The notes below the pieces were generated by a model. The model was not told the DNA's origin. It made no database searches and saw nothing but the letters and a program-made list of their open reading frames with translations. Below, one piece after another: positions 1-23,462 of a DNA stretch of 33,733 nucleotides (position 1 is its first letter; the number at the start of each line of letters is the position of its first letter). Location of the stretch: positions 1-33,733 of IMG/VR virus record IMGVR_UViG_3300009788_000222, one strand, 5' to 3'. The position numbers and the translations under genes are program-made. The DNA comes from a virus.

Positions 1-2195
1 GTCGTACCCGAAACAGTTACAGTTGTCGATGTAGAACTTGTCGACGTAGAGCTTGTTGTTGAGGTCGAAGACGTCGAAGTCGATGACGTTGACGTTGAAC
101 TTGTAGACGTACTGCTGGTAGACGTAGAACTTGTTGTTGAAGTCGATGACGTTGACGTAGAACTTGTCGACGTACTACTGGTAGATGTCGAACTTGTAGA
201 CGTGCTGCTGGTAGATGTCGAACTTGTAGATGTGCTACTGGTCGTAGACGTTGAACTTGTCGACGTCGATGACGTTGACGTCGAGTTTGTCGACGTACTG
301 CTGGTAGACGTCGAACTCGTGGAAGTACTGCTCGTTGTTGACGTCGAACTGGTCGATGTACTGCTCGTAGAAGTCGAAGATGTGGAAGTACTACTCGTGG
401 AGGTGGAAGATGTAGAAGTCGAAGACGTAGAAGTCGAAGACGTAGAAGTCGAACTCGTCGTAGACGTAGAAGATGTCGACGTGCTGCTTGTAGAAGTCGA
501 AGAGGTTGAAGTCGAAGACGTAGATGTCGAACTTGTTGTAGACGTCGAAGAGGTTGAGGTGCTGCTCGTAGAAGTCGAAGAAGTTGAAGTGCTACTAGTA
601 GAAGTCGAGCTGGTCGTTGATGTCGAAGACGTAGACGTACTACTGGTAGAAGTCGAAGACGTAGACGTCGAAGATGTCGATGTGCTGCTTGTAGAAGTCG
701 AAGACGTTGAAGTTGAACTTGTTGTTGAAGTCGAAGAGGTCGATGTGCTGCTGGTTGAAGTCGAGGATGTTGATGTTGAAGACGTGGTCGATGTCGAGGA
801 AGTAGACGTACTACTTGTAGACGTCGAAGAAGTTGACGTACTACTTGTGGACGTCGAAGAGGTTGACGTCGAAGAGGTTGACGTCGAAGACGTAGATGTC
901 GAACTGGTGGACGTAGAACTAGTCGTTGCTGCGGCTACCGCTGCACCAACCCCCCAGTAAAGAAACTCAACAGCTGCAGGATCACTTCCCTGCCAGTCTA
1001 GAAGAAATCCCGAATCAGTAGTTCCAGAATCTATGAATCCTTGGAAATGGGCCTCATAACCAATGGACAAAGAAGGTACAAGATCGGAGTGGAAAATGCA
1101 GTTGTCTGAACTCTGAGCCCGATCTGCCTCCAAAGGAACACCACCCGTAGCTCTTTGAAAACTATACCCCTCAAACGTGTCAGTCCCTTCTTCAAGAGCG
1201 TGACCAATAACAGAATGAGCTTGCTCAACAAGGATGACGCTAGCGTTCGAATCGAAAGAATTAAATACGACCGCTTTTGGGTTGTTGAGAGACAACTGAT
1301 GATTCGCTAAACCAGCGGAAGAAGGGGCCTGATCAAAATCCAGAGCAAACTCTGGTCCTTTCAGGACAGCGTATCCAATCCTTTTCGCCGATGCGGGAGC
1401 GTCAGATACGTTCAAACGAAAGCCATCTGTGATCCAATCAACAAAGTCGTAGTCAGCATCGACGGCAACCCCACCACCAGGCTGTCTAAGCAACCTCAAG
1501 CAATCCACCTTGCGTTGGAAACGCACAGAATTGCTATTACTCATCATCTCGTCGTCGTTCGCACTACAACCATGCGTCTGTCTCTGAGTCGCGCTCATTG
1601 CAAACCCGAGAGACAAATCCATGCCTTCAGTGAGAGAGTCACCCGTAGCCGTCGTGTTGGTGGCAAATAGGAGCAGAAGGTCCCCAGCCGCCGGATCGAA
1701 TCCAACTCCAGTGATGTCCTGGTCACCCGTAGATGTGTTCGATATAAACTCACCAACCTTAGCATCTGTCAGGTCAGTTCCAGCAATCGTCATGTAGTGA
1801 ATGACTGAAGCAATGGCGTCGTTCGTACTCCAGTTCAACGTGAATTCACCGACCTCTGTTCCATGCCCGAATTCCACCACGTCACATTGAGCAACAAGAT
1901 TCTCACTGCCCTGGATCAGCGTCAATGCGTGATTAGTAAATCCACTGCTGGTATTGCTGTTGTCAGATCCATCTGCGCCAGCAATCGCCACCGACTTCGA
2001 TTCGAAATCAGTAGTGCTTAATTCTTCTGTGATGCCCCAGGATTGCCTGCTCTCTGCAGCAAGTCCTTCCCCGGACTGAAAAGTCGACCACATAATCAGA
2101 ACTTTGATGCGCTCCGTCCCTCCAGTGTTGACTGTCTGGAGTTGAGTAGCTCCAATGGGCTTCGCAAACGTTCCGATCTTCACCTCGAGAGACAT
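1..2195 (-). CDS. Modular phage structural (fibre/appendage-like) protein with Ser/Thr-rich tract, 3' end outside window
   Basis: The minus-strand frame is open from an ATG at 2195 to the left edge with no stop (731 codons), so the C-terminus is missing. I translated it by hand. Residues 1-423 look like three related modules of about 135 residues. Each ends in a similar strand-rich block: GEFTLNWSTNDAIASVIHY near 117-134, DGFRLNVSDAPASAKRIGY near 258-275, and SGFLLDWQGSDPAAVEFLY near 395-413. The starts also recur (VKIGTF near 5, AKVGEF near 145, KGPEF near 279). A short Ala-rich stretch follows, then about 302 residues that are almost all Ser and Thr, then TVTVSGT. The modules resemble repeated beta-rich domains seen in phage virion proteins; this is family memory, not a search. 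The ATG directly follows the TAG of the upstream gene. The tract suggests a stalk or a heavily O-glycosylated linker. Structural role is likely; exact role unknown. Confidence 0.8.
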   Translation of the reverse strand, partial: MSLEVKIGTFAKPIGATQLQTVNTGGTERIKVLIMWSTFQSGEGLAAESRQSWGITEELSTTDFESKSVAIAGADGSDNSNTSSGFTNHALTLIQGSENLVAQCDVVEFGHGTEVGEFTLNWSTNDAIASVIHYMTIAGTDLTDAKVGEFISNTSTGDQDITGVGFDPAAGDLLLLFATNTTATGDSLTEGMDLSLGFAMSATQRQTHGCSANDDEMMSNSNSVRFQRKVDCLRLLRQPGGGVAVDADYDFVDWITDGFRLNVSDAPASAKRIGYAVLKGPEFALDFDQAPSSAGLANHQLSLNNPKAVVFNSFDSNASVILVEQAHSVIGHALEEGTDTFEGYSFQRATGGVPLEADRAQSSDNCIFHSDLVPSLSIGYEAHFQGFIDSGTTDSGFLLDWQGSDPAAVEFLYWGVGAAVAAATTSSTSTSSTSTSSTSTSSTSTSSTSTSSTSTSSTSTSSTSTSSTSTTSSTSTSSTSTSSTSTSSTSTTSSTSTSSTSTSSTSTSSTSTSSTSTSSTSTSSTSTTSSTSTSSTSTSSTSTSSTSTSSTSTTSSTSTSSTSTSSTSTSSTSTSSTSTTSSTSTSSTSTSSTSTSSTSTSSTSTSSTSTSSTSTSSTSTTSSTSTSSTSTSSTSTNSTSTSSTSTSSTSTTSSTSTSSTSTSSTSTSSTSTSSTSTSSTSTSSTSTTSSTSTSSTSTSSTSTSSTSTSSTSTTSSTSTSSTSTTVTVSGT
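21..926 (-). repeat. Degenerate 15-bp repeat array encoding about 60 TSSTS-type Ser/Thr pentapeptides
   Basis: Read on the minus strand in the frame of the enclosing gene, nearly every codon from 926 down to 21 is ACN, TCN or AGY. The dominant period is five codons (TSSTS), with occasional six-codon spacing. Synonymous codons vary freely from unit to unit, so the repeat is conserved as amino acids rather than as identical DNA. I saw one non-Ser/Thr codon, an Asn near 285. The complementary strand is open through the array (valine- and acid-rich), which is a by-product of the codon pattern and not a gene. Confidence 0.9.
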
Positions 2196-2543
2196 CTACC
2201 AGATCCGATCTTCGTGGAAGGAGTTGTAGCGCTCGAGCCAGGACGTATCTTGAATCAAAATACCCGTCTTCACGGCACCGTCCGGAAGACCCTTCGGAAC
2301 GTCCTTGGCCGCCCCACAGCCAAAAGTCTCGTCCGGATTTATCCAGTAGTAATCTTCCGACAGAAGCTCTTCCTTGTAGTTCTCAGTCACCCACTCGTTG
2401 TCGGAGGTGTATCGCCTGTAGTTCTCTATGAAGTAAATACTGACGATCAACACCTCATCGCTCTTGCTCGCATTCCATGAAGATTCTCGAGACGTAACCA
2501 CGGTCCCATCGGAGTAGAGTATCTTCCATCCTGCGATCGTCAT
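2196..2543 (-). CDS. Small conserved-type phage protein, unknown function
   Basis: A 115-residue soluble protein, rich in aromatic and acidic residues (MTIAGWKILYSDGTVV at the N-terminus, then SSW and DYYW motifs). It has no signal peptide or membrane segment. Its general look, with a W-x-I-x-Y-S-D-G opening followed by a Ser-Ser-Trp, is one I associate with small hypothetical proteins near phage tail or appendage genes, but I cannot assign a function. It starts 4 bases after the glycosyltransferase gene upstream, behind an AAGGTGG ribosome-binding site. Its TAG touches the ATG of the Ser/Thr-rich structural gene, so the two are probably co-translated. It could be a chaperone or partner of that protein, but nothing in the sequence shows this. 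Confidence 0.65.
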   Translation of the reverse strand: MTIAGWKILYSDGTVVTSRESSWNASKSDEVLIVSIYFIENYRRYTSDNEWVTENYKEELLSEDYYWINPDETFGCGAAKDVPKGLPDGAVKTGILIQDTSWLERYNSFHEDRIW

Positions 2544-2547
2544 AGTC

Positions 2548-3666
2548 CTACACCACCTTCCAAGGAGCCTCAGATATCAGTTCATCGAAAGAGCAAACCT
2601 GGCGTGCAGATATCCATTCTCGATCTTCTTTACCATCAGCAAAAGCACGCTCACGTAGCTTGTCAAGATTTACCAGATAGCGCTCAACTTTTTTACACTG
2701 CTGTCTGTAGCGTTGGTAGCGCTGCTCAAGCCACTTCTCTCCACCAATCACGTACGCACAAAGAAGAAAGTTGTACCAGAGCTGATCGTTGTTCCAGGAA
2801 TAGTTCCTACCATAACCAAGTAGCTTGTCTCCAGACTCCGGAGTCACCCCCTTCGAAAGTATCCCCTTGCCTCGAAGAAGCTGTCCTCGGTAGGTCATAC
2901 GATCATTCCAGTCACGCCATGTCGGGTTCAGTCCGAAGGCGTGACGAACGAGACCCTGCGGCCACATCCAGATCTTCTTCCCGAGAAGCCACCACTTGAA
3001 AGACAGGTATGGCTCACCACCTCCGTAGCATTCAAACTTCGGATGAAAACCGCGTATCTCAAGCATCTCTTCTCGACCAAGAAGAAAGAACGAGTACTGA
3101 GCCATCGGGATGGTGTAAGGATCCGGAGATCCATTGGTGAAGACCTCCGGTGGGATATGTCTGCAAAGATTACCCCAGAACTTCTCCTCGATCTTCAGAT
3201 CGTAGCCATAGAGACGCACGTGCTTCGGATCCCCCCACATCTGTGAAGCCGAGAACCACATGCCACCGTTGCGCAACCACAGCTGGATCATCTCGTGAGT
3301 CGTCCCGTGAGTCACTGACATGTGAGCATCACAGACGATGAGCACCTGCCCTCGCGCCACCTCGATGCCCCTGTTGCGAGCGTCCCAGCATGCAGGCCGT
3401 TCATCGAAGTAGACCACCCGCAGCCGAGAGTCCTTCACCCAGTGACGAAACCGATCCTCGAGGACCTCAGGAGTACAGTCGTCACTCTGATTCGAAACAA
3501 TGATGAACTCATACGGATAACCCCAGTACTCGAGTTCTTCGGTAAGACAGAGCATTGTCGTGATGACCTGTGGGTGCTCGTTCCTCACAGGCATGACGAC
3601 GCTGACCATCGGCTTGACATAGTCATTCCCATGCCGAGGGATCGAGTAATCCTTCAGGACTGGCAC
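2548..3666 (-). CDS. GT-A glycosyltransferase resembling polypeptide GalNAc-transferases (GT2/GT27-like)
   Basis: This 372-residue protein has a GT-A fold signature. VSVVMPVRNE (residues 21-30) opens the nucleotide-binding half, ARNRGIEVARGQVLIVCDAH (96-115) carries a D-x-H metal site, and GGGEPYLSFKWWLLGK (215-230) is followed by a His at 242. The combination of AR..G...A.GQV...DAH with GGE..LSF..W..G and a downstream H-x-F closely parallels family GT27, whose members attach GalNAc to Ser or Thr, although the family also overlaps general GT2. No lectin domain or membrane anchor is present; about 120 C-terminal residues are helical and basic. It appears to start at a GTG behind AAGGG. It lies two genes upstream of a protein with some 300 Ser/Thr residues, a plausible acceptor. 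Glycosyltransferase is confident; the acceptor is inference. Confidence 0.82.
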   Translation of the reverse strand: MPVLKDYSIPRHGNDYVKPMVSVVMPVRNEHPQVITTMLCLTEELEYWGYPYEFIIVSNQSDDCTPEVLEDRFRHWVKDSRLRVVYFDERPACWDARNRGIEVARGQVLIVCDAHMSVTHGTTHEMIQLWLRNGGMWFSASQMWGDPKHVRLYGYDLKIEEKFWGNLCRHIPPEVFTNGSPDPYTIPMAQYSFFLLGREEMLEIRGFHPKFECYGGGEPYLSFKWWLLGKKIWMWPQGLVRHAFGLNPTWRDWNDRMTYRGQLLRGKGILSKGVTPESGDKLLGYGRNYSWNNDQLWYNFLLCAYVIGGEKWLEQRYQRYRQQCKKVERYLVNLDKLRERAFADGKEDREWISARQVCSFDELISEAPWKVV

Positions 3667-4254: not shown

Positions 4255-4794
4255 TCAGCTCCCTCTGCCCTGGAATCGGTACCAATGATAAACGTAAACG
4301 CCGGGGAGAAGATAGACTTTTAAGCCGTGATCACGAATGCGCTTGTGCATGTCGTTATCTACGGTAAGGAACCCGTTCTTGAAGCCATTCACGGCAGCCC
4401 AGGCTCGACAAGAGATGCACATCATCACACCGGAGAGAGGCTTACCGCTCGGATGATCTTCCCATTCCGTGACGTCAACTACTGAATGCTTGTGTTCGTC
4501 AGCAAGCTTTCTACCAAGTTCCCGATGGAAAACTATGTTGTGCTCCTTGGGGGAAACACCCTTCACCTTCATCCAGCCACAACCAATCCGATTCGTACTG
4601 GTAACGAAAAGACCGGCGTCGGGATTCTCTTTGATCGCTTCGGTTATCTGACGAGCCCAGATCGTGGTCGTCCACATTGCATCGTGATCAAGTAAGCAAG
4701 CCCAGTCATCACCCTTCAGAAGCCCCATGAAGTGGTTGTAGGCAGACCCAAGGTCTTTCCCATCGACGTCGTATGGAGTTGCGCAGATCAGCAT
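4255..4794 (-). CDS. Small GT-A glycosyltransferase (GT2-like)
   Basis: A 179-residue protein with a likely metal-binding LLDHDAMW motif (residues 34-41) and a central PLSGVMMCISCRAW segment, followed by GFLTVDNDMHKRIRDHGLK and a closing YVYHWYR. This pattern (acidic metal site, then a substrate loop, then D-x-D-x-H-x-R and a C-terminal His-Trp-Tyr) is one I recognise from short GT-A transferases. The N-terminus (MLICATPYDVDGKDLGSAYN) lacks the usual VS-hydrophobic first strand of full-length GT2 enzymes, so it is a minimal form. It overlaps the GTGPSL gene upstream by 7 bases and is the last gene of the continuous glycan block. Donor and acceptor are unknown. Confidence 0.7.
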   Translation of the reverse strand: MLICATPYDVDGKDLGSAYNHFMGLLKGDDWACLLDHDAMWTTTIWARQITEAIKENPDAGLFVTSTNRIGCGWMKVKGVSPKEHNIVFHRELGRKLADEHKHSVVDVTEWEDHPSGKPLSGVMMCISCRAWAAVNGFKNGFLTVDNDMHKRIRDHGLKVYLLPGVYVYHWYRFQGRGS

Positions 4795-5441
4795 GGAAAT
4801 GATTCCTCAATCGAGATTGAACGCACTGGAGTCTCTGGACAGAACTCCTGAAAATGAGGCGACACCGTGACAACCTCGATCGGCCAAAGGTTCTGCCTAA
4901 ACCCATACTGCAACCACTTACGCCACTGCCCCATCATGGAAAGTTGACGTCCAGGTGCCTCACCACCAACCTGCTTGGAATAGAACTCTCCCCCCGGAGC
5001 TCCCATGTCGACCCCAACCAGAACAACTCTTTGAGCCTCCATGAGAGTAGCCAAGCTGAGCGCTACAGTCGCGATCGTCCACCGACCAGCAAGGAATCTG
5101 AGTGACTGGCTATCCTGGTTAGTGAAACAGTAGACGTCAATAGTGAGTTCGTTGTAGTGACGTTCAAGGAAGTGGAGGTGCTTCTCGTTCACAACCAGAG
5201 AGGTCCCTGAGCTCAGTGATTTCTTGTACTTCTTGGCTCCCCAACGAGCGAACTTGCCATCCCCGAACAGCCAGAAACTAGGATCGAATACGTTCATGAT
5301 CGTATTCATTCCGATCGTTATGGAACCGTCCAGACGATCCAGTGGATAAAAATCAAGGCTCGGCCCAGTCCCCAGAATGTAGACCGTCTGATCTCGAGCT
5401 ATACCTCGAAGTTCAGAGACATCTTCAACCGTCCACGGCAT
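4788..5441 (-). CDS. GTGPSL-motif protein (GT42/DUF115-like), paralog 1
   Basis: A 217-residue protein with YILGTGPSLDFYPLDRL at 21-37, a central hydrophobic TIATVALSLATLMEA helix and a VVLVGVDMGAPGGEFYS block. An N-terminal G-x-G-P-S-L nucleotide-binding loop followed later by a L-x-G-V/L-D motif is the layout of the GT42 sialyltransferase and DUF115 (MptE-like, flagellin Maf) groups, which bind a nucleotide-linked sugar or pterin. It is one of five such proteins in this window, and it overlaps both its upstream and downstream neighbours. SD: GAGG eight bases before the ATG. A sugar-transfer role fits the neighbourhood but is not proven. Confidence 0.68.
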   Translation of the reverse strand: MPWTVEDVSELRGIARDQTVYILGTGPSLDFYPLDRLDGSITIGMNTIMNVFDPSFWLFGDGKFARWGAKKYKKSLSSGTSLVVNEKHLHFLERHYNELTIDVYCFTNQDSQSLRFLAGRWTIATVALSLATLMEAQRVVLVGVDMGAPGGEFYSKQVGGEAPGRQLSMMGQWRKWLQYGFRQNLWPIEVVTVSPHFQEFCPETPVRSISIEESFPC

Positions 5442-6177: not shown

Positions 6178-6182
6178 AGGAA

Positions 6183-6707: not shown

Positions 6708-6708
6708 T

Positions 6709-7146
6709 TCAAAAATGTCCTGGTGGGTCAATCTGCCAATTCTGACTTTCGAGCAAATTTACATCCTGAGATAGAGAGTAGCAGTATAACTGCCCTTGAA
6801 AAAACTGCTTCACGGGAAAGAACCCCACCCTAAGGTAGACGTTGTCCGTAGCCCCCCTCGAAGAAAACAGCCCGAGGCAGGAAAACTTCCCCTGAGATTC
6901 GTGAATTGTCCACCCCAGGATTTCAGCGGCAAGGCCCCTGGATCTGAATCCAACCTTCGTGAACACTCCGCCGATCCCCAACATACTCATCTGGACAGAC
7001 GGCGACTCAAGAACTCTCGGGAACAGCCGCAATGCGGCCACCGGCTCTCCTTCAATCCTGCCGACGACAACGTCTGGATGGTTGTCCCATTCCCACCCAG
7101 GACGACGAAGACCATCGAACGAACCGGGCTCAATAGCGATGTCCAA
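6709..7146 (-). CDS. GNAT-family N-acetyltransferase
   Basis: A 145-residue protein with the acetyl-CoA pyrophosphate loop (motif A) at 64-73, VGFRSRGLAAEILG, preceded by the strand MSMLGIGGVFT and followed by the strand-loop FSCLGLFSS and YLRVGFFPV. This is standard GNAT architecture. Translation probably starts at a TTG (7146) five bases after GAGGAG, overlapping the aminotransferase gene by 17 bases. Direct coupling to a DegT aminotransferase suggests it acetylates the new amino group of the nucleotide sugar. Known perosamine N-acetyltransferases (PerB/WbdR type) are often left-handed beta-helix proteins, so a GNAT here would be an analogous solution. Confidence 0.8.
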   Translation of the reverse strand: MDIAIEPGSFDGLRRPGWEWDNHPDVVVGRIEGEPVAALRLFPRVLESPSVQMSMLGIGGVFTKVGFRSRGLAAEILGWTIHESQGKFSCLGLFSSRGATDNVYLRVGFFPVKQFFQGQLYCYSLSQDVNLLESQNWQIDPPGHF

Positions 7147-8194
7147 AGAAGCTCCTCACGCTGCGCACGATGTACTCCAAGTCAGAATCGGACAACCACC
7201 AGCCAACAGGAATGCAGAGTTGATTGGCATCGAAGTAATCAACCCCCTTCAAGCGAAGATCGCCAATCATTACATCGTGTTTGTCGCAGCGCCGATGGAC
7301 GCTTCCTGAATCGATTCCGACGTCTTTCAAGTACGACTGAAGCTCCTCTCTACGACCAGTGATGATCGAATAAATCCAGAACGAGCAATTCGCATCCATC
7401 GGTGGAGTCGCTATCTTCGAGTCAATGAAAGCTTCTGAATACATCCGAGCATTCGCCATGTTGCGACAACAGTTCTCGTGAGCTCCAGAGAGGTTCTCGA
7501 GACCTATCGTCGCCGCGATGTCGTTCATGTGATACTTGTAGCCAGCCTCAGTGATGTTCTGCTCACAACGAAACTGGGCGCTGCTCTTCCTGTCCAGTCC
7601 GTACCAGCGCAGCAGTTCAGCTCGATCGCGCTGCTCCCCTGGAACCAACAGCGCCCCACCATCACCCGTCGTCAAGAACTTGATTGCCTGGAAACTCCAA
7701 CAGACGTAATCACCATGCTGACTGCTTCCACCCAATCGGTGAGCTGCATCCTGAATCACCGGAACGCCGAATGATTTCAGTCGCTTGTAATCACATGGGC
7801 GCCCGGCCCAGTCGACCGCAACGATCGCCTTGGTCTCTTTCGTGATCTTGCTCTTCACGTCTTCTGGTGATATGAGCCCGGTGATTGGACACACGTCTGC
7901 CCAGACGATCTTGGCCCCGCGATTGACAAGGGGTATGTTCGTTGCCGAACATGTCATTGGGGTGGAGATTACCTCTGATCCCTCAGCTATTCCGCAGAGG
8001 TGATAGGCGAGGTCAAGCGCATGAGTACAACTGGACGTCGCAAGTGGAACAGATGGAAGGTCCCAGGACTCTTTGAGTCCGAGCTCGAACTCCTCCACTA
8101 CGGGCCCCTGGCCAATGTAGCCACTGTAGAGCGTCTGGAGTAAGGACTCCTTGACGGTAGGCGACATGTAGACGCCGAAAAGCGGTATGCTCAT
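7130..8194 (-). CDS. DegT/DnrJ/EryC1-type sugar aminotransferase (perosamine-synthase-like)
   Basis: A 354-residue PLP-dependent enzyme starting MSIPLFGVYMS at 8194 (TGATG overlap with the amidotransferase gene). SGYIGQGPVVEEFE (24-37) is the typical N-terminal signature. Asp149 in VIQDAAHRLGG contacts the pyridine nitrogen, and Lys172 in SFQAIKFLTTGDGG is the Schiff-base lysine. Residues 270-354 form the small domain with a WIYSIIT strand and an IPVGWW segment. Length and motifs match nucleotide-sugar aminotransferases such as PerA/ArnB. With GDP-mannose 4,6-dehydratase in the same block, the natural substrate would be GDP-4-keto-6-deoxymannose, giving GDP-perosamine. That product is inference. 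Confidence 0.87.
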   Translation of the reverse strand: MSIPLFGVYMSPTVKESLLQTLYSGYIGQGPVVEEFELGLKESWDLPSVPLATSSCTHALDLAYHLCGIAEGSEVISTPMTCSATNIPLVNRGAKIVWADVCPITGLISPEDVKSKITKETKAIVAVDWAGRPCDYKRLKSFGVPVIQDAAHRLGGSSQHGDYVCWSFQAIKFLTTGDGGALLVPGEQRDRAELLRWYGLDRKSSAQFRCEQNITEAGYKYHMNDIAATIGLENLSGAHENCCRNMANARMYSEAFIDSKIATPPMDANCSFWIYSIITGRREELQSYLKDVGIDSGSVHRRCDKHDVMIGDLRLKGVDYFDANQLCIPVGWWLSDSDLEYIVRSVRSFFGHRY

Positions 8195-10005
8195 CAGAGA
8201 TGCATTCCCAACTGTTTCGCCCATAGCCTGAAGTAGAACATCGAAAAAATCGTCTTTGGATATCCCAGATGGTTAAACCTGAAAAGGTCATCTGTTTCTT
8301 TGTGCCAACCGTAAGTCAGACACTTACGGATTGATCTCCCAAGCAACGACCGAGCGTTGTTAGGAAACCTGTTGAGATCCGCCCATTCCGCAACCGGAGC
8401 GGTCCAACCAGTCTTCTTCTTCGTCAGGACACACTTAGGAAGTCGTCCCTTGTAAGAATCCAGAATGAGGCTTTTGGTCTTCTCGCTTCGGAGTTTTCTT
8501 TCTCCAGAGATGGAAAACGCGTAGTTCCTGAACAGTCTCGTCAGCATAGGGAACCTTGCCTCCATCGAAAAATGCATCCCCAGCTTATCGTTACGGATAA
8601 GGAAGTCCTCACACATGTGATTCATCGTTTCAAGGCAGAGGTGGTTGTTCAGTGCGTCATCCCCAAAGACATTCATCGGAAACCACGACTTGAAGTAGTC
8701 GATCCTTTCCCGGACCCTTGGTGCCCCTTTGGGGTTCCTGAGAAACAGTGGTCCACCCTTCTGAATCGTGGAGAAGAAATGCCAACGACAAATCGGATCA
8801 CTCAACCTGTAGAAACTGAAGGACTCTGAAGATCCATACCTTTTGTCGAGATCCTTCCAGACTTCGTCATACCTTGGAGGAGAAATGACTTCGAGATGTC
8901 GATTGTAGCCGGCAAGCAGTTCGTCTCCTCCGTCGCCAGTCATTACGACCGTGGCTCCAAGACGCGAAGCCTCCTTGTTGACCAGGTAGTAACATGGCGT
9001 GCTCTTGTTGTAACGCGGCTCCTCCTGAACCAGGATGCTCTCAGGGATCGCTTCCGTGAATGTCTCTTCAGTGACGTTCAGTTCGTAGTGCTTTGTTCCG
9101 TAATGGGCTGCCACCTGTGCAGCGGTCGTGGCATCACCATTGAACTTATCGGTATCCCTGCAATCGAAGCGCGTCGTTATCGTAATCGGCTTGCAACCAA
9201 TCTCGCACAGATGATGAAGGATCGCACAAGAGTCCATTCCACCACTGAGGTAGAGAGCTATCTTACGCCTCCCCATGGTGCATCGACGAACACTCTCATT
9301 CAAACAGGCGTAGAGCTCATTCTTGTCGAACGAGTCACTGGCCTCGGGGACTTGATCAGTAACGTTGTAATCCTCCAGTATCCTTGAAGACACGACGTCA
9401 AAAACCATGACCTGACCAGGAACAAGCTTCGACACCTTGGATGCAAGAGTCCTTGGTCCGGGAACAAACCCAAGGTCCATGTAGAGATGGAAAGAAAACA
9501 CATCGATCGTCTTCTCTATTCCAGACAAGAACAACGAGCGCAACTCCGAAGAGAAAACGATACGTCCACTGTTCAGGGTCGAATAGTAGAGAGGCTTTGA
9601 TCCAAAAGAATCTCTCGCCAGGGTTAACGTTGAGGATTCCCTGTCGTAGTAAGCGATGGCGTACATCCCATCGATCTTCTTGATGAACCCGTGACCTTCC
9701 TCAGACAATCCATGAACAAGAACCTCTGTGTCGGTCTCGGTACGAAGAGTCTCTACCGCAAGGCCCTTGTTGAGCTCTTCGTGATTGTAGATCTCACCGT
9801 TGAAGACAAGCACCGATCCAGGAAGAACCCACGGCTGCTTTCCCTCGTCTGCATCTCTCCCGGTGATCGAAAGTAAGTTGTGACCGAGTGTTACACGCTC
9901 GTCGTTGAATAGACCCTTGCCGTCTGGCCCCCTATGTGAAGCGGCTGACACCATCTTCTCAACCAAAGGAACGTTGTTACTGGTGATGCCGTGAATGCCG
10001 CACAT
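8194..10005 (-). CDS. Asparagine synthetase-like glutamine amidotransferase (AsnB family)
   Basis: A 603-residue, complete two-domain protein. Met-Cys at the start gives the N-terminal nucleophile Cys2 of class II glutaminases (MCGIHGITS), with HRGPDG at 24-29 and FNGEIYNHEEL at 68-78. The synthetase domain has the ATP PP-loop SGGMDS at 254-259. Length and domain order are those of AsnB. In O-antigen loci, AsnB-like enzymes often amidate sugar carboxylates instead of making asparagine, and that may be the role here; true asparagine synthesis cannot be excluded. Its TAG abuts the stop and start of neighbouring genes, so it lies within the operon. Confidence 0.88.
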   Translation of the reverse strand: MCGIHGITSNNVPLVEKMVSAASHRGPDGKGLFNDERVTLGHNLLSITGRDADEGKQPWVLPGSVLVFNGEIYNHEELNKGLAVETLRTETDTEVLVHGLSEEGHGFIKKIDGMYAIAYYDRESSTLTLARDSFGSKPLYYSTLNSGRIVFSSELRSLFLSGIEKTIDVFSFHLYMDLGFVPGPRTLASKVSKLVPGQVMVFDVVSSRILEDYNVTDQVPEASDSFDKNELYACLNESVRRCTMGRRKIALYLSGGMDSCAILHHLCEIGCKPITITTRFDCRDTDKFNGDATTAAQVAAHYGTKHYELNVTEETFTEAIPESILVQEEPRYNKSTPCYYLVNKEASRLGATVVMTGDGGDELLAGYNRHLEVISPPRYDEVWKDLDKRYGSSESFSFYRLSDPICRWHFFSTIQKGGPLFLRNPKGAPRVRERIDYFKSWFPMNVFGDDALNNHLCLETMNHMCEDFLIRNDKLGMHFSMEARFPMLTRLFRNYAFSISGERKLRSEKTKSLILDSYKGRLPKCVLTKKKTGWTAPVAEWADLNRFPNNARSLLGRSIRKCLTYGWHKETDDLFRFNHLGYPKTIFSMFYFRLWAKQLGMHL

Positions 10006-10770
10006 CTAAGTCTTCTTCTTCTTAAGATTGAATTCTTTCCAAGCCGGAATCCATTCTTCCCAGCCTTCCGACGCCTTGAGAATTTTGTCTGTGTCTTCGT
10101 CTCCGATCAGACCTCTCAAGTACTTCTCGTCCGGATCGTCAGTACCCATGTCGGCACCATGCTTCCAGGTTATCGACCGTCCCGGAATACCCTTGATGTT
10201 GACTATGTAGAATCCTGAGAAGACATTGAACAACAGCCCGCTCTCAACGAGCTTTGACCAGAATCTCAAGTCAATGAGCGGATCTTCTACCAAGCTTGCT
10301 GAATCCAGCGCTTTACGAAGAACCTCTATTCCTTCAGAAGCAACGCAGAAGGACCCCATAAACCGCAACCTTCTTCTTGCCTCTTCTGGAGAACATCGTT
10401 TATCGAAGTACTTGCGATACCCGACGTGATAAACCAGAGCTCCAGAGGTTGCCGCCGCCGAATGACCACTGACATTCTCGACCATCGCCTCGACGTAATT
10501 CGAAGCTATCCAGTCATCATCTTCGATGTACATCACAACTTCTCCATGGGAGTTCTGTAGACCCCATTTTAGGTTGTGGAAATTCGTGTACTTGTTTTTT
10601 GAGGGAGGAAGCCTGAAGTACCTGTACTCACTCCCAGAGCCAACGGGCTTATCTCCATCGTCGACCACAATCCATTCGATTTCAGACCAGACAGTTTGAC
10701 GCTTCATCCACTGCCTGCACAGATTAAATCCTGCGGGGCGATCTCTTGTTGGAGTAATGACCGTTATCAT
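10006..10770 (-). CDS. Family 2 glycosyltransferase
   Basis: A 254-residue GT2. MITVITPTRDRPAGF is the first Rossmann strand, IEWIVVDDGD (31-40) the second, and VMYIEDDDWIASNYVEAM (79-96) carries the DxD metal site. A GALVYHVGYRKY segment and the EDPLIDLRFWSKLV segment belong to the acceptor half. It ends in a lysine-rich tail (KKKKT). The start codon overlaps the stop of the oxygenase gene (ATGA). Donor and acceptor unknown. Confidence 0.86.
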   Translation of the reverse strand: MITVITPTRDRPAGFNLCRQWMKRQTVWSEIEWIVVDDGDKPVGSGSEYRYFRLPPSKNKYTNFHNLKWGLQNSHGEVVMYIEDDDWIASNYVEAMVENVSGHSAAATSGALVYHVGYRKYFDKRCSPEEARRRLRFMGSFCVASEGIEVLRKALDSASLVEDPLIDLRFWSKLVESGLLFNVFSGFYIVNIKGIPGRSITWKHGADMGTDDPDEKYLRGLIGDEDTDKILKASEGWEEWIPAWKEFNLKKKKT

Positions 10771-13407: not shown

Positions 13408-13410
13408 CGA

Positions 13411-14151
13411 TCAACCCCTGCGATTTGGGTCTAAGTTGACTTCTCTTCGATTGTAGTTTGAAACGTCGAGCGCTCCAGGCAATGGTTTAATATCGAGCTC
13501 TCCTTTCACCCGGTTGAAGTCTTCTACTGCGTCGTTGAGACCAATGAATGGCGTCAAACTGACTACGGGAATCTTCAGTTCATCTCTTATGACCTTGCGA
13601 ATATGCGCGGTGAAGTTTCGGTATTCTCTGTAGACGGCATCTGGATTGAGACCATGAAATTGAATGGGCTGAGCGTGGCCATGATGCGATCCATCGAGCG
13701 AGCACATGTCAACACCTACAAGATAGATCGCTCGAGCTCCCATGTGAGCCGCGATATTCATTGCCGTCTGCTGAATCCCGCGCCCAATGTAGAGCACGTT
13801 ACGAACCCTCTCACGAACGTACTGAAGGTTGAACCCGTGAGTCGGTACTGGCTTCTCGCCTTCGAAAACGTAGTATCTCTTGTCAGAGAATGACGCTCGA
13901 ATAGGAGCCTTCTGACCTTTCACAATCCACTGTGTCTTGTTCTTTCGTTCGGTGTCTTTCTCGTACTCCACGATCAAGTCAGGATGAACGGTGACTGAAT
14001 ATGTCAAGGAAGAATACTTCCAAGCACGATTGAGTCCGATCGTTGTCTTCCCGTCGAGGACCTCCATTGGAAAAACCCGCATCGACGGTCCGGTGCCAAC
14101 GATGTAGATGTCCTGACCTTTGTGCTTGTCCCAGAGCAACGAAACCTGCAT
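13411..14151 (-). CDS. GTGPSM-motif protein (GT42/DUF115-like), paralog 2
   Basis: The start is set at ATG 14151, behind AAAGGA and three bases after the stop of the GT8-like gene; a longer open frame reaches 14316 but lies inside that gene. The 246-residue product has DIYIVGTGPSMRVFPMEVL (14-32), NRAWKYSSLTYSVTVHPDL, a QTAMNIAAHMGARAIYLVGV helix-strand and VDMCSLDGSHHGH. The last motif, D-x-C-S-L with neighbouring His residues, differs from the other paralogs and may be catalytic. Nucleotide-sugar binding is likely; glycosyltransferase activity is inference. Confidence 0.7.
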   Translation of the reverse strand: MQVSLLWDKHKGQDIYIVGTGPSMRVFPMEVLDGKTTIGLNRAWKYSSLTYSVTVHPDLIVEYEKDTERKNKTQWIVKGQKAPIRASFSDKRYYVFEGEKPVPTHGFNLQYVRERVRNVLYIGRGIQQTAMNIAAHMGARAIYLVGVDMCSLDGSHHGHAQPIQFHGLNPDAVYREYRNFTAHIRKVIRDELKIPVVSLTPFIGLNDAVEDFNRVKGELDIKPLPGALDVSNYNRREVNLDPNRRG

Positions 14152-14153
14152 GC

Positions 14154-14858
14154 CTATCCTTTCAGAAGATGATCGTAGTACGGATGAAGGCCTTCCTTCT
14201 TCCGGTATATCCCTCTCGCCCACCTCAGGTCTTCCTGACTCACAGCGCCGCTCTCTATGGCTTCCTTCAATTCTTTCTCCCAGAGTCCCCTGAGAGGATG
14301 CTCCGGTTGGAACCACGGCTGTCTCTTCAGATCCGAGTAATGCAGGAGCTTCGTCTCTCCAGGCTTGTAGAGATCAATGTGATTCCACTCATACCCGAGA
14401 TCAAACGGCTTTGGTTTGATCCACTTTCCATGCATCACCTCTCTACGAGACAGCTCTTTATTCTTCAACCGAACAGGGATGTTTTGCCACGTCCTGCACA
14501 TCGCGCAGTTGATGAGAAGGACGCTCGTTAACGCCCGCTTGCCTTTGTGCGCACACCAGAGATGTGACTTCCCTTCATACGAATCCTTGAAAGCCCACAG
14601 CTTCGCAATGTCATCGAGTACGATCTGATCCGCATCCAGGTAGATTGCAAAACCCTTGTGGTCAAAGAACTCAGGAATCATCCAGCGACGGAACGAGAAC
14701 CCAGTAACACCAGTCGGAGCTTTGTCCCAAGGTTCACCCATCATCCTGAAGATCGCAAGAGGTCTCGACGTATGCTTTCGTATCGTGTACTTGAGGACCT
14801 TCTCCGGAATCCTCATCTTGGGCTCAGTACCTATGCAGATACGAATGATCTCTGGCAT
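14154..14858 (-). CDS. GT8-like glycosyltransferase, paralog A
   Basis: A 234-residue protein. IIRICIGTEPKMRIPEKVL opens it; FSFRRWMIPEFF (54-65) and AIYLDADQIVLDDI (71-84) contain the DxD (DAD 75-77) of GT8/LgtC/glycogenin-type retaining enzymes. TSVLLINCAMC follows, and KLLHYSDLKRQPW provides the C-terminal His-Tyr. It is a clear paralog of the protein at 17243-18028, sharing the opening, the RRWMIP/FRWMIP segment, the DADQIV site and the T-K-L-L-H-Y motif, though the two differ in length. Donor unknown. Confidence 0.8.
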   Translation of the reverse strand: MPEIIRICIGTEPKMRIPEKVLKYTIRKHTSRPLAIFRMMGEPWDKAPTGVTGFSFRRWMIPEFFDHKGFAIYLDADQIVLDDIAKLWAFKDSYEGKSHLWCAHKGKRALTSVLLINCAMCRTWQNIPVRLKNKELSRREVMHGKWIKPKPFDLGYEWNHIDLYKPGETKLLHYSDLKRQPWFQPEHPLRGLWEKELKEAIESGAVSQEDLRWARGIYRKKEGLHPYYDHLLKG

Positions 14859-14859
14859 G

Positions 14860-15642: not shown

Positions 15643-16268
15643 CCGTCGATCTCTCCAATCATCAAGCCGGTTGCCGTTTGCAGGCTGGCTCCTCTTTTTC
15701 GCGTGTACTTCTTCTCGATCGCTTCAGACAGAGGAGCCTCCACCCATTGATTGGCCTCTTGAGATGAGGCACGAACCATGCAGTGGAGTCGATCGAAAAG
15801 CTTCTCTTCCGACCCCACCATTCTGTCCCAGTTACGGTTGTAGCCGAATCCACACGTGATCAACAGTCTCCCTCCTGGCGCCAACAACGCCCTGATTCGT
15901 TCTATCGCTCTCCTGCACTTCGTTGGATCCCTCTCTTCCTGGTAATCGAATCCGACGTGCTCAAGCGTCGAGACGCTAACAACAAGATCGAACCGCTCAG
16001 ATGTCTCGAACTTTGTGATATCTTCGTTGATTACATGTGGATAGTTCTTCTCGTAAAGATCGACGACTGACCATTTGGGCGGGCTCCTTGAGTAATGTTT
16101 GTGGAAGACGTTGCCGACCTCAAGTATGGACCCTCGACAACAATCCAGTTGTCGTTTAACAATCGGTAACTCGACTGCTCGCTCGTTGAATCGAGTCTTT
16201 CGGCTTCGGTAGTAAGCGTAACGACGCTCTCGAAACAAGAAGTATCGATGATCATGACTCTCTTTCAA
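15639..16268 (-). CDS. Class I SAM-dependent methyltransferase
   Basis: A 209-residue protein. SILEVGNVFHKHY (about 47-59) is an atypical motif I, WSVVDLYEKNY carries the acidic residue and FDLVVSVSTLEHVGFDY the post-II/motif IV region; LLAPGGRLLITCGFGYN matches motif V/VI. No in-frame ATG precedes the fold, so translation probably starts at a TTG (16268) behind AGAGG, overlapping the dehydratase gene by 17 bases. Substrate unknown. Confidence 0.75.
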   Translation of the reverse strand: MKESHDHRYFLFRERRYAYYRSRKTRFNERAVELPIVKRQLDCCRGSILEVGNVFHKHYSRSPPKWSVVDLYEKNYPHVINEDITKFETSERFDLVVSVSTLEHVGFDYQEERDPTKCRRAIERIRALLAPGGRLLITCGFGYNRNWDRMVGSEEKLFDRLHCMVRASSQEANQWVEAPLSEAIEKKYTRKRGASLQTATGLMIGEIDG

Positions 16269-17235
16269 CGTCCGCCTCTACCATGTCCTTGACCAATCGG
16301 TTGAAAGGAATCTCCGGAGACCAACCGAGAAGACTTGCGGCCTTAGAAGAATTTCCAACAAGGTCTGGTATGTCTCCATCGCGAAGAAGCACTGCATCAC
16401 GCTTGACCCAATCTTTCCAGTTCAGACCAACATGGTCGAACGCAACAACGCAGAAGTCTTCTACAGACCATGACTTCCCTGTGGAGATGACGAAATCGTC
16501 AGGGTACTCACGATCAAGCATCATCCACATCGCCCTGACGTAATCCTTAGAGTGACCCCAGTCTCGCCTCGCCTTCATATTGCCGAGACTCAAGACCTTC
16601 TGCTTGTCGGCGACTATCCTCGCAACTGCTCGGGTTATCTTCCTTGTTACAAACTCTTCACCCCTACGTGGACTCTCGTGGTTGAAGAGAATCCCTCGAG
16701 CGATGAACATGTCGTAACAGTCACGATAGAACCCGCACATGTTATACGCGCTGATTTTGGAAACAGCATACGGAGAAATCGGACGCATGAATGTCTGCTC
16801 GTTCATCGGCGGCGTCGCATAGGGCCCAAACTGCTCAGAAGATCCGGCGAAGTAGATCTTCGTCTTCGGGCAGTGCCGGCGACACGCCTCGAGAACGTAC
16901 TGAGTCCCCAAAACGTTGACCGACATCGTCGTAAAAGGATCCTCGTAGCTGGCGCCAACATCACTTTGAGCCGCCAAGTGGTACACTTGGTCCGGCCTGA
17001 TCTTCTGAATCAGAGCTGATATCGACGCCGGGTTGTCGAGCGATCCCTCATGAAGTTCCAAAACACCGTGCAACCTATTGGGACCAAGAAGGTTTGAAAT
17101 CCGCCACAGACGATCATCACGGCTGTGCGTCGCTACACGACGAACAAAGCCGTGCACTTCGTAGCCTTTCTCGAGTAGAAGCTCGACCAAATAGCTTCCA
17201 TCCTGACCAGTTATTCCGGTAATCAGAACCTTCAT
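16252..17235 (-). CDS. gmd: GDP-mannose 4,6-dehydratase
   Basis: A 327-residue short-chain dehydrogenase/reductase. MKVLITGITGQDGSYLVEL is the NAD(P) loop with the GMD-typical G-I-T-G-Q-D-G; VRR near 31 is also typical. YHLAAQSDVG, the SSEQFG active-site stretch (132-137, Ser/Glu), YAVSK (Tyr156, Lys160) and FNHESPRRGEEFVTRKI are hallmark GMD segments. The ATG at 17235 has GAGG five bases upstream; a GTG two codons earlier lacks one. It converts GDP-mannose to GDP-4-keto-6-deoxymannose, the branch point to GDP-perosamine, GDP-rhamnose or GDP-fucose. I see no reductase or epimerase in the window, which points to the aminotransferase as the next step. Confidence 0.92.
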   Translation of the reverse strand: MKVLITGITGQDGSYLVELLLEKGYEVHGFVRRVATHSRDDRLWRISNLLGPNRLHGVLELHEGSLDNPASISALIQKIRPDQVYHLAAQSDVGASYEDPFTTMSVNVLGTQYVLEACRRHCPKTKIYFAGSSEQFGPYATPPMNEQTFMRPISPYAVSKISAYNMCGFYRDCYDMFIARGILFNHESPRRGEEFVTRKITRAVARIVADKQKVLSLGNMKARRDWGHSKDYVRAMWMMLDREYPDDFVISTGKSWSVEDFCVVAFDHVGLNWKDWVKRDAVLLRDGDIPDLVGNSSKAASLLGWSPEIPFNRLVKDMVEADVERES

Positions 17236-17242
17236 TCGCACC

Positions 17243-18028
17243 TCAAGAATTGTAGGCTGTCAGGACTCTCTTGTACTGCGGATGAATCCCGAACGTCCTC
17301 CTCCTGTCTCCAGCATCCGGCCTTCCGAAACGAGCTATCGCCGCCTCAAGCTCTGCACGAGGAACTGCACCAGCCTTGATCGCATCAATCAAGACCTTCT
17401 CCCAAGTGATCGCAAACTTGTGATGAATGTTGTACCAAGGCTGAGTTTGCTCTCGAGTGTAGTGAAGAAGCTTTGTCTTATCAGGAACGTGCTTGTTGTG
17501 CTGATTCCACTCAACCTCGATCCTGTTGGCAGGAAACTTCCCCCACACCTGATGCATGAACATGCCATAGTTGCATACCCTCTTACGCATCTGCGACGAC
17601 ATCCAGTCCAACTCCCAGTATTTTGCCTTCTCACAGTCGATCAGCATGACGCTCGACTGCATGCCGGGTTTACTCGGATTCTTGAAGTACTTGTCATTGT
17701 CGTAGGCGCACCAGACCTCGCTCGGACCAGGCTTCTGCTCATCCTTCGTCCACAGATCTAGGATGTCATGGAAGACGATTTGGTCAGCATCCAGGTAGAT
17801 CGCCTTCCCCTTGTAGCCCAGGTAGTGAGGAATCATCCACCTGAAGAGAGAGAACCCAGTCCCCATCCGCAAGTCCTTAGGCTTCTCCCAGTACCCCTTC
17901 TCGCCCCCAGGTTCCATGATGTGGATCTCGACTGGATTCTTCGTATACTTCTTGATGGTGTAAACGAGCACCTGAGCGGGAACTCTGGTCTTGGGCTCAC
18001 TGCCGATGAAGATTCTGATCGTATCCAT
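17243..18028 (-). CDS. GT8-like glycosyltransferase, paralog B
   Basis: A 261-residue protein starting MDTIRIFIGSEPKTRVPAQ at 18028 (TAATG overlap with the GT4 gene). FSLFRWMIPHYL and KAIYLDADQIVFHDILDLW contain the DxD at 80-82. MQSSVMLIDCEKAKYW is the sugar-binding block; TKLLHYTREQTQPWY contributes the C-terminal His-Tyr. It is larger than paralog A, with an extra GGEKGYWEKPKDL loop near 41-53 and a longer C-terminus (GRPDAGDRRRTFG). An open frame extends upstream to 18169 but lies inside the GT4 gene. Retaining sugar transfer is likely; donor unknown. Confidence 0.82.
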   Translation of the reverse strand: MDTIRIFIGSEPKTRVPAQVLVYTIKKYTKNPVEIHIMEPGGEKGYWEKPKDLRMGTGFSLFRWMIPHYLGYKGKAIYLDADQIVFHDILDLWTKDEQKPGPSEVWCAYDNDKYFKNPSKPGMQSSVMLIDCEKAKYWELDWMSSQMRKRVCNYGMFMHQVWGKFPANRIEVEWNQHNKHVPDKTKLLHYTREQTQPWYNIHHKFAITWEKVLIDAIKAGAVPRAELEAAIARFGRPDAGDRRRTFGIHPQYKRVLTAYNS

Positions 18029-19374
18029 TACTGATTCATCTTGTTCAAAAGAGGTTCCAATTGATTCTTGAACACCCAATCTCGATTGTACATCTGTGTC
18101 CTTGCTTTGGTTGAGCTCATGAACGTCGAGTCTCTTTGCAGTTCTCCCCAGAGCTCCCTGGAAACACATTCGTAGTAAACAGGATTGGAGTTTGGGTCAT
18201 TGCTGAAATCGTAAGACAGGACGTTGTCTGATCCAAACTCAAGCATCGGAAGAAACGCCCTATTGAGAACCAAGAACTTCCCAGAGATCGCGGCTTCCGC
18301 CTGTATCAAAGAACAGCACTCGCTCTCACTCGGAAAGACGAACAGATTTGACATCTGAACAAGCTCACGGACTGCTCTTGACGGGACGCTGTATTTCCAT
18401 TGACTCCAGACCGGTTCATCAATTCCGATCTCTGCATTCTTGACGTCCTGATCTGCTGCGAATCTTGAGGTCCAGATCACATCAAGTCCGGGAGTTAAGT
18501 CACACTTCCTCGCGTAAGCCTCCATCTTCCGTACGATGACTTCGTCTTTCTCGTTGTTGGCATGAGAATTAACGAGAACCAGTTTCGCGTTGATTCCAAG
18601 TTTCCTCCAATACCCCCAGATCTTCATCAGCTTACTGACGCCCTTCGCCTCCCACCGTGGAGTCGAGAAAGGGTACACCTGAAGTATTTCATGATCCAGA
18701 AGCCTGTGCTGCTTGATCAACAAATCAACGTCTTCATGCACCCCGTAGTAATCGCGTGGATCCTTGAAGTTGTAGACAACTGCCACGTCCGCCGCCTTGA
18801 TCTGAAAATGATTCGCCACATCCTGTCTCTGACGATTATTAAGAAATACGTACGTTGAGTTCTCGCAACCCTGGAATCTCAGACTGGATGGATACGGCGG
18901 CTGTTCGTTGGAAGGAAGCCCACTAGGAGCACTGTGAATCCAATGAAGCCAGTGCTTATTCGGATACATCTCAACACAACGACGTATCGCGGCGTTTTGA
19001 CACAGGTGTGACCCTAGGAACATCAAGTCATGCGTGATGATGATGTCGTACGGCTCAACGGCCTCCTTGTAACCAATCTCCCCCGTCTCCGGACGTCCGC
19101 CGTAGTGAACGTCAATCTGTTCATCAAAGTCGTCGTGCGGCTTCTCATTCCACTGATAGTCATGCAAGACAGTCTGCGGCAATATCGCTCGAACTCTCTT
19201 CGGCAGACCCTCCATTTCGATGTCATGCTTGTTGAAGTTCTTCAGAACCAAAAGGTCGTAGTCGTAGTTGTGACGATCAAACATACGAGCCTGATCGAGG
19301 ATGATCCCACACAACGAATAGCTCGAACTGAAGTCCACCAGAGGCGTTAGTATCGCGATCTTCGGTCGACGCAT
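18028..19374 (-). CDS. GT-B glycosyltransferase (GT4-like)
   Basis: A 448-residue two-domain GT-B enzyme. The N-terminal domain includes KIAILTPLVDFSSSYSLCG and YDIIITHDLMFLGSH; the C-terminal domain includes LQVYPFSTPRWEAKGVSKL and FVFPSESECCSLIQAEAAIS. The last has the E-x7-E donor motif of GT4 (Glu352 and Glu360). AAGGA lies eight bases before the ATG. The gene is preceded by the only sizeable gap in the glycan block, which carries a structured element. Donor unknown, but this is the best candidate for a GDP- or UDP-sugar transferase acting in chain extension. Confidence 0.85.
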   Translation of the reverse strand: MRRPKIAILTPLVDFSSSYSLCGIILDQARMFDRHNYDYDLLVLKNFNKHDIEMEGLPKRVRAILPQTVLHDYQWNEKPHDDFDEQIDVHYGGRPETGEIGYKEAVEPYDIIITHDLMFLGSHLCQNAAIRRCVEMYPNKHWLHWIHSAPSGLPSNEQPPYPSSLRFQGCENSTYVFLNNRQRQDVANHFQIKAADVAVVYNFKDPRDYYGVHEDVDLLIKQHRLLDHEILQVYPFSTPRWEAKGVSKLMKIWGYWRKLGINAKLVLVNSHANNEKDEVIVRKMEAYARKCDLTPGLDVIWTSRFAADQDVKNAEIGIDEPVWSQWKYSVPSRAVRELVQMSNLFVFPSESECCSLIQAEAAISGKFLVLNRAFLPMLEFGSDNVLSYDFSNDPNSNPVYYECVSRELWGELQRDSTFMSSTKARTQMYNRDWVFKNQLEPLLNKMNQ

Positions 19375-19761: not shown

Positions 19762-20227
19762 CAAAGCTTGATTAAAGAGACTCCTTCAACCTCATTGTGC
19801 CGCCGAACAAGGATGTTCAAACTCAACTTGTCAATCTTGTCGAGAACCTTCTGTCCACAGGAACCGAAGAGAAAGCTGTAAAAGAACAGCTTCGAGCATA
19901 TTCTCAACCCATTCTCAATAACCAGTTCAGTCGCTTTGTCTCTGGAGACCGATCGATGCACACCATGCCTACCGCGTCGAACTGACCATCGTCGAACTTG
20001 TGAAGATCAGATGCCGAATATGGAAATACAAAAGCACCATCCCTCTGAGCTTTGATCGCGAGGTCAGTTTCCGGTTCCGTTCCGTGGACTGTAAACCCAC
20101 AGTCCTTCAGAAGAGCTACGAACTTGCCCGCGCCACAGAACAACTCGAGGACCGTCGACACTTCGAGCTTTTGCCACAAAGGGAAGAGCTCTGAAAGTGC
20201 CTTGAAGTCGTCAGCTACTGGACGCAT
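19761..20227 (-). pseudogene. Class I methyltransferase with an apparent frameshift
   Basis: The ATG at 20227 has TAGGAG upstream. The first frame reads MRPVADDFKALSELFPLWQK, then VSTVLELFCGAGKFVALL (SAM loop, 25-42), GTEPETDL and FDDGQFDAVGMVCIDRSPET. It then departs into a tail ending at 19904. A shift of one base near the AAA at 19935-19937 restores ATELVIENGLRICSKLFFYS and onward to a TGA at 19761 that forms TGATG with the next gene. The combined product would be about 155 residues, sensible for this fold. One missing A (AAA in place of AAAA) explains it: a sequencing or assembly indel, or a real mutation. I see no standard slippery heptamer. Confidence 0.65.
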
Positions 20228-20993
20228 TGGTCCGACTCCTACTGTTTTTGAACCACTCGACTCCACCGTTGTTCTCAGGCAAGAAATCAGGCAGGCTGTT
20301 CTTGAGGGCCTCCTTCAGGTCAATTTTCGGCCATGAACTGATAAGAGACTGCGGGTTCAGGTTGTAGACACCTGGACCAGGCCAGACGGATGGATACGCC
20401 TTGACTGAATTGAAGAACCCCTTAGCCTCATCCATGGTGGCATTCCATCTCAGATGCCGATCTTCTTGAAGAAGGTTCCCAGTTCTCTTCGTTATCTGAC
20501 GATCACCCTTCTGGTGCATGGATCCATCTGAGTAGTACGCCTCAGAGACCCTGTAGCCGTCCACACCAAGCAAGAAGACCCTCCTCGCGCCAAGCTTCCA
20601 GCACAGATAAAGGGCGCCGCAAGCCACGGTCCTCCCAACGTGAAGCATGTCATCAGACACCTTGACTGGAGGTCTTGTCGTTCTTCGAAACAGAAATACC
20701 TGATTTCTGAATGCGCATCTCTTGTCTTTCCGCAAGTAATGCACCGCACCAGACTGACAGACCACCGCAGTGGATTTCTTCAAAGGCAGGCCGACGTACC
20801 TTCTCCAGAGCTGATCGTCACTGAAGATGAGCAGCGATGGAGAAAACTGCTTCACCGCACAGTTGAGAGCGACCGTAAATCTGTTCTTGAGAACCGAGTA
20901 GTCGAACCCACGCAGGCTGGTTCCTGTGCCGACGATGAACGCATCTCCGTCAATCCACTTCCCACGCAGAAAACGAATGTCTACGTCGCTCAC
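20211..20993 (-). CDS. GTGTSL-motif protein (GT42/DUF115-like), paralog 3
   Basis: A 260-residue protein starting at GTG 20993. DAFIVGTGTSLRGFDYSVL (17-35) is the glycine-rich loop, RFTVALNCAVKQFSPSLLIFSDD follows, GRTVACGALYLCWKLGARRV and FLLGVDGYRV form the second motif, and YSDGSMHQKG precedes an HLRWNATMDEAKGFF helix. The PGPGVYNLNPQSLISSWPK stretch is shared almost intact with the paralog at 22754, marking a recent pair. The C-terminus, ending in RSRTNASSS, is unique. It overlaps both neighbours. A nucleotide-sugar transferase role is the best guess. Confidence 0.68.
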   Translation of the reverse strand: MSDVDIRFLRGKWIDGDAFIVGTGTSLRGFDYSVLKNRFTVALNCAVKQFSPSLLIFSDDQLWRRYVGLPLKKSTAVVCQSGAVHYLRKDKRCAFRNQVFLFRRTTRPPVKVSDDMLHVGRTVACGALYLCWKLGARRVFLLGVDGYRVSEAYYSDGSMHQKGDRQITKRTGNLLQEDRHLRWNATMDEAKGFFNSVKAYPSVWPGPGVYNLNPQSLISSWPKIDLKEALKNSLPDFLPENNGGVEWFKNSRSRTNASSS

Positions 20994-23452: not shown

Positions 23453-23462
23453 CCCCGAAACC

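Follow-up and report, generated by a model that had tools for sequence, protein, structure and literature searches.

The IMG/VR record IMGVR_UViG_3300009788_000222, a 33.7-kb tailed-phage genome record from a viral metagenome collection, encodes an enzyme resembling the polypeptide N-acetylgalactosamine (GalNAc) transferases of CAZy glycosyltransferase (GT) family GT27 and, one gene away, a protein with a long tract of Ser and Thr. We refer to the whole stretch analysed, 33,733 nucleotides, as the window. Our preferred reading, to which we assign a probability of about two in three, is that both genes belong to a virus-encoded cassette for the O-glycosylation of a mucin-like virion protein, with the order of the enzymes tentative. 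A group of uncultured phages is accordingly predicted to sugar-coat its own particles, probably in a mucin-like fashion. The reading builds on the tract itself, the GT27-like fold and motifs of the enzyme, the close packing of the genes and the repeated association of this enzyme family with otherwise unrelated tracts. A first-pass annotation had proposed that the phage builds a sugar and attaches it to its own surface protein; the GT27 resemblance and the recurring tract support this in part, and activity, sugar and acceptor are what we infer. The central features are as follows.

3..2195, minus strand: tract protein; residues 1-422 form a beta-rich N-terminal region, followed by the Ser/Thr tract; cut by the contig end
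21..926, minus strand: Ser/Thr tract, residues 424-725, units SSTST(T); proposed O-glycan acceptor
2196..2543, minus strand: small 115-amino-acid protein in the interval between enzyme and tract; counterpart in L022 at 11402-11749 (pairwise E 1e-7)
2548..3666, minus strand: GT27-like glycosyltransferase, proposed protein O-glycosyltransferase; DAH (113-115), GGGE (215-218), H242

The enzyme, 115-amino-acid and tract genes lie head to tail on one strand with gaps of 4 bp and 0 bp, a spacing from which co-transcription, and hence a common transcript, appears likely.

A GT27-like glycosyltransferase

The enzyme open reading frame (ORF) specifies 372 amino acids that include ARNRGIEVARGQVLIVCDAH and GGEPYLSFKWWLLG, and the GalNAc-transferase-type motifs previously claimed for these segments are present as stated. 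Compared with the PDB as a single sequence, the enzyme matched GalNAc-T10 best (E 3e-5). A profile of 16 relatives gave GalNAc-T4 at 65 bits (E 5e-17), with the catalytic domain covered throughout, whereas the best non-GT27 match of the same profile (45 bits, E 7e-11) was confined to the N-terminal half. The AlphaFold model was obtained with a predicted local distance difference test score (pLDDT) of 82 and a predicted template-modelling score (pTM) of 0.82. In a PDB structure search with this model, the best 50 matches were all GT27 enzymes (top E 1.6e-16, template-modelling (TM) score 0.61), with ~14-20% identity to GT27 in the structural alignments. Among the matches listed for the viral proteins of BFVD, the best reached E 1.5e-15 with TM scores of at most 0.53, below the best GT27 match.

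The details of the active site follow the same pattern. A DxH metal motif is found in 20/20 phage relatives and in the GalNAc-transferases, whereas most of the generic GT2 enzymes compared carry DxD. Residues D113, H115 and H242 are invariant in the family alignment, and the third metal His and the GGE align with those of the GalNAc-transferases. At the position of the WGGEN signature the window enzyme reads YGGGEP and most relatives YGGGE or Y(A/G)GEE, so that the GGE matches but the Trp and Asn do not. A Pfam scan returned only Glycos_transf_2 and Glyco_tranf_2_2, with no C-terminal ricin-type lectin domain in the 372 residues. In a small tree of phage glycosyltransferases, GalNAc-transferases and generic GT2s, weak and with long branches, the phage enzymes fell beside rather than inside the GalNAc-transferase group. 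Judged by sequence and modelled structure, the enzyme is nearest to the polypeptide GalNAc-transferases among solved glycosyltransferases. Profile, fold and motifs support the label "GT27-like", which we use in place of GT27 because of the missing lectin domain and the tree placement; with respect to catalytic membership of GT27 the label denotes resemblance. A variant of this architecture occurs in L155 (11670-13673), where the catalytic domain of a 667-amino-acid GT27-like enzyme is interrupted midway by a large insertion.

The Ser/Thr tract and its protein

The tract protein (731 amino acids) runs off the contig, and its C-terminus is missing. Ser or Thr occupies 301 of the 302 positions from 424 to 725: an uninterrupted run of 213 (424-636), one Asn, and a further 88 (638-725). 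The earlier description of about 300 Ser/Thr in a row is therefore right in number, with the row broken once. The tract is made mostly of 57 units of SSTST or SSTSTT, written with all six Ser and all four Thr codons. Codon identity between adjacent repeats, at a lag of five residues, is 0.26 versus 0.235 for shuffled codons, and is somewhat higher at lags of 10 and 21 residues. This near-shuffled value indicates that the tract has been maintained at the protein level while the DNA drifted, and the scrambled codons argue against a young DNA microsatellite or simple-sequence artefact as its origin. Synonymous drift with preserved Ser/Thr is likewise seen in a second contig, G021 (L154, about 34522), where 101 consecutive Thr use all four Thr codons and a GT27-like enzyme lies 2.7 kb away.

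The N-terminus of the tract protein shows homology to the G071 tract protein (L161; E 7e-15) and, weakly, to the L019 one; its AlphaFold model (pLDDT 47) was too poor for use. The L019 protein extends into a domain of the minor tail protein type (phrog_538, E 2e-16), and the tract protein of G050 is itself a tail protein (phrog_1101, E 2e-79). Assignment of tract proteins as virion proteins is thus supported by sequence matches in these two homologous systems, and the "structural-type" designation given earlier to the window protein is probable by homology. Domains unusual for virion proteins also occur in this group: the tract proteins of L018 (11860-18276) and L284 (12554-17065) contain a calcineurin-like phosphoesterase domain, and the latter additionally an SdiA-regulated-like domain.

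L284 is a prophage in the chromosome of a Ca. Latescibacterota metagenome-assembled genome (MAG). Its gene order is that of the window, from terminase, portal and capsid through glycan island and enzyme to tract protein, followed by a tape measure gene, and its terminase, portal and capsid proteins share 46%, 39% and 46% identity with those of the window. Ca. Latescibacterota is our best host lead. We considered whether this phylum carries the GT27-like gene as a cellular one and rejected this: only 1 of 80 genomes searched contained it, and there it sits within the prophage, which marks it as phage-borne. The prophage also encodes a second Ser/Thr-rich protein, of 2940 amino acids, in its tail gene region (L300, 9705-18527).

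Recurrent pairing of enzyme and tract

A single-sequence search for relatives of the window enzyme gave no matches; relatives were gathered by a search seeded with a homologue from phage Tunturi_4 and then with L009. Best-segment identity to the window enzyme is 47-50% in L017, L018 and L022; it is 47% in L284, 31% in L019 and 25-30% in L009. All six carry a Ser/Thr-tract protein a few kb downstream of the enzyme, a tract being scored where an ORF had at least 28 Ser/Thr per 40 residues. In L023, TTTTLPP repeats lie upstream, and in L020 the sequence stops immediately after the enzyme. The tracts consist of SSSVSTTR repeats in L017 and L022, SSSYSSTA in L018, irregular Ser/Thr in L009 and mostly Thr in L019; Ser/Thr richness is their common trait, and their sequences are otherwise unrelated. 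Overall, a tract was present in seven of eight family loci with neighbouring sequence (six of seven without the window) versus 0/120 random viral loci totalling 1.10 Mb (Fisher p 8e-11).

The pairing was also approached from the tract side, in 80 contigs chosen by a Ser/Thr-type DNA pattern. This sampling is noisy, with only about one third true Ser/Thr ORFs and many Asp/Glu/Val repeats on the opposite strand (for example L004). A clear GT27-like family member was present in three of the 80 (G021, G050 and G073) and in none of 38 control contigs; in G050 the enzyme lies ~8 kb from the tract-bearing tail protein. A search of 50,697 phage records for the tract-linked module found none. The first-pass annotation had named clustering of the enzyme with polysaccharide GT2s, together with loss of the tract in homologues, as the outcome that would speak against it; we found the enzyme nearest GT27 by profile and fold, and tracts recurring beside its relatives.

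Several observations weigh against a dedicated enzyme-tract system. The enzyme lacks the lectin domain noted above. A distant branch of its family lies between terminase and portal genes (L003 1567-2565, L006, L007, L008 and L010-L013, including gp2 of the isolate Tunturi_4) with no tract in the sequence examined. This branch suggests that the family can have other acceptors and limits certainty about the acceptor here; either it modifies another virion protein or the family has a wider range of functions. The control loci were shorter on average (~9 kb versus 17-21 kb), and the eight family loci are not fully independent, since the window and four relatives form one clade. In G073 the enzyme is ~20 kb from a 110-residue tract. 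Many Ser/Thr tracts in viral contigs have neither a GT27-like nor a GT4-like gene, and we reject the notion that every phage tract is accompanied by a GT27-like enzyme. Finally, the tract contigs G063 and G071 carry a GT4-like gene and no GT27-like gene, so that some tracts evidently do without the GT27-like enzyme.

The GT4-like gene and alternative explanations

A second glycosyltransferase gene, GT4-like (window 18028-19374), is present in all family tract loci examined, a set that does not include G021, and is partial in L020. It occurs in four of eight long-tract contigs versus 0/38 controls, and tblastn found none in the 50,697 phage records. In G063 (L160) and G071 (L161), the Ser/Thr-tract ORFs adjoin glycan clusters that contain this gene. 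From its distribution, the GT4-like enzyme may be either the first-link enzyme or an extender. GtfA, the first-link enzyme of Ser-rich-repeat adhesins, is itself a GT4 enzyme. A scheme can therefore be drawn in which the tract is glycosylated with the first link made by the GT4-like enzyme, or by MptE/sialyltransferase-like proteins, leaving a later sugar to be added by the GT27-like enzyme. The constancy of the GT4-like gene, including in the two contigs without a GT27-like gene, favours this scheme, which we nonetheless consider unlikely: direct action on Ser/Thr is known for GT27 enzymes, and a profile of the GT4-like family found no GtfA among PDB chains, its best matches being BshA-type enzymes, weak and mostly C-terminal. 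A GtfA-like nature of the GT4-like enzyme is thus not supported.

The glycan genes could instead alter the host surface or a free polysaccharide, for seroconversion or superinfection exclusion, with the tract serving as an unmodified flexible linker. Phages commonly carry GT2 enzymes, GtrB-like ones among them, that convert the O-antigen (phrog_841 is a weak match here), and tracts are found between folded domains and in phages without a GT27-like enzyme. Yet the enzyme model has a soluble GT27-like fold, not that of a membrane GtrB, and pairing with unrelated Ser/Thr-rich tracts at 7/8 versus 0/120 would be unexpected for a linker beside a host-modifying enzyme; we judge this account improbable. 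Least credible of all, to the point of being very improbable, is that the acceptor is the 115-amino-acid protein or some other virion protein and the tract merely an operon neighbour. A small gene does lie between the enzyme and tract genes in L022 and L019 as well as in the window, and no tract accompanies the terminase-portal branch. These small proteins are, however, weakly related or unrelated and not Ser/Thr-rich, and the sole trait common to the neighbours is the Ser/Thr tract.

Under our preferred reading of a virion-directed cassette, an O-glycosylation cassette would form part of a tailed phage's structural operon, with the Ser/Thr tract of a virion protein, probably at the head or tail surface, as acceptor. 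Inside the infected cell, the GT27-like enzyme from the same operon would use a nucleotide donor to attach a sugar to Ser/Thr residues in the tract, and the GT4-like enzyme and other transferases would then extend or cap this sugar, with donors coming in part from the dehydratase and aminotransferase genes. The outcome would be a stiff, hydrophilic, densely glycosylated mucin-like stalk on the particle, and the benefit might be shielding, spacing of receptor-binding domains or adhesion.

Organization of the window

On the minus strand the genes run from terminase, portal, scaffold and a P22-type major capsid protein through the glycan-type genes (23464-4255) to two small genes, the enzyme, the 115-amino-acid gene and the tract gene. 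The glycan-type genes, described earlier as about 19 kb upstream, span 19.2 kb (4255-23464); one of the two small genes separating them from the GT27-like enzyme is holin-like (3673-3921). The position of the capsid gene places the glycan island within the structural operon. The remaining assigned features are listed here.

4255..4794, minus strand: short glycosyltransferase; phrog_14179; weak Glyco_transf_7C
4788..5441, minus strand: MptE-like/sialyltransferase-like protein
7130..8224, minus strand: DegT/DnrJ/EryC1 sugar aminotransferase
8194..10005, minus strand: asparagine-synthase-like amidotransferase
10006..10770, minus strand: GT2 glycosyltransferase, DDD motif
13411..14316, minus strand: MptE-like/sialyltransferase-like protein; phrog_4603
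14154..14858, minus strand: GT8-like (weak)
16252..17241, minus strand: GDP-mannose 4,6-dehydratase-like sugar-nucleotide enzyme
17243..18169, minus strand: GT8-like (weak)
18028..19374, minus strand: GT4-like glycosyltransferase, second enzyme kept in tract-bearing contigs
20211..20993, minus strand: MptE-like/sialyltransferase-like paralogue; 41% to an L299 prophage protein; without a Pfam match of its own
21886..22779, minus strand: MptE-like/sialyltransferase-like paralogue; 42% to an L299 prophage protein
22754..23464, minus strand: MptE-like/sialyltransferase-like paralogue
23526..24449, minus strand: major capsid protein (P22-coat type), context
25349..26935, minus strand: portal protein, context
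27394..28746, minus strand: terminase large subunit, context

Some of the five MptE-like (PF01973)/sialyltransferase-like proteins have counterparts in the L284 prophage. NeuB is encoded in L018 and L284, and a cytidylyltransferase also in L284, which points to nonulosonic-acid sugars in those relatives. Directly upstream of a terminase-region gene (28755-29294), a 72-bp unit is present in two perfect tandem copies (29414-29559), either a genuine repeat or a duplication introduced in assembly.

Relation to known glycosylation systems

The window enzyme shares with the GalNAc-transferases of GT27 its nearest GT-A fold, the DxH, the GGE, the third His and a full-length profile match, and the candidate acceptor, a mucin-like Ser/Thr tract, is of the kind used in the mucin-type system. 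It differs in being phage-encoded and single-domain, without a ricin-type lectin or membrane anchor, and in reading Y-G-G-G-E-P against W-G-G-E-N. The bacterial Ser-rich-repeat protein (SRRP) adhesins, such as Fap1 and GspB, are glycosylated by GtfA/GtfB and accessory glycosyltransferases (PMC6973325). Long Ser-rich repeats, clustered dedicated glycosyltransferases and a variable number of extending enzymes are features in common. In contrast to these cell-wall adhesins, the tract protein is a predicted virus-particle protein, with a place at the virion surface suggested by homology for L019 and G050 only. No SecA2/SecY2 or LPXTG context as in SRRP systems was seen, and no Pfam match to a GtfA/GtfB initiating pair was found among the window proteins scanned.

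The glycans of mycobacteriophage virions are reportedly made by phage-encoded glycosyltransferases. In these virions, capsid and tail tube subunits have been described as carrying glycans at their C-termini (Freeman et al. 2023, doi 10.1016/j.chom.2023.05.028, as cited in PMC12619734). Both cases concern glycans on virion proteins of tailed phages, here predicted from genes alone; unlike the mycobacteriophages, the window combines a GT27-like enzyme with a long, dedicated tract of Ser/Thr and devotes ~19 kb to glycan genes. Virion glycosylation in phages is already known; what is new is the GT27-like enzyme, the dedicated tracts and their recurrent pairing, and our literature search found no description of phage Ser/Thr tracts with GT27-like enzymes.

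If the preferred reading is true, phages of uncultured bacteria make a mucin-like coat by a self-encoded, dedicated pathway whose key enzyme resembles the starter of animal mucin glycosylation, and phage virion glycosylation gains an acceptor recognisable from sequence alone. The proposal would be testable in a cultivable phage, as a family member is present in Tunturi_4, a cultivated Tunturiibacter phage (PMC11924767). A bolder version, which we regard as doubtful, holds that a virus-borne GalNAc-transferase-like lineage performs true mucin-type O-glycosylation of phage mucin-like domains, sometimes with sialic-acid-like caps; the animal mucin pathway would then have a counterpart in prokaryotic viruses, perhaps one related to its source. 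A virion-directed cassette, if confirmed, would bear on the origin of GT27 enzymes and would offer compact single-domain enzymes for protein O-glycosylation.

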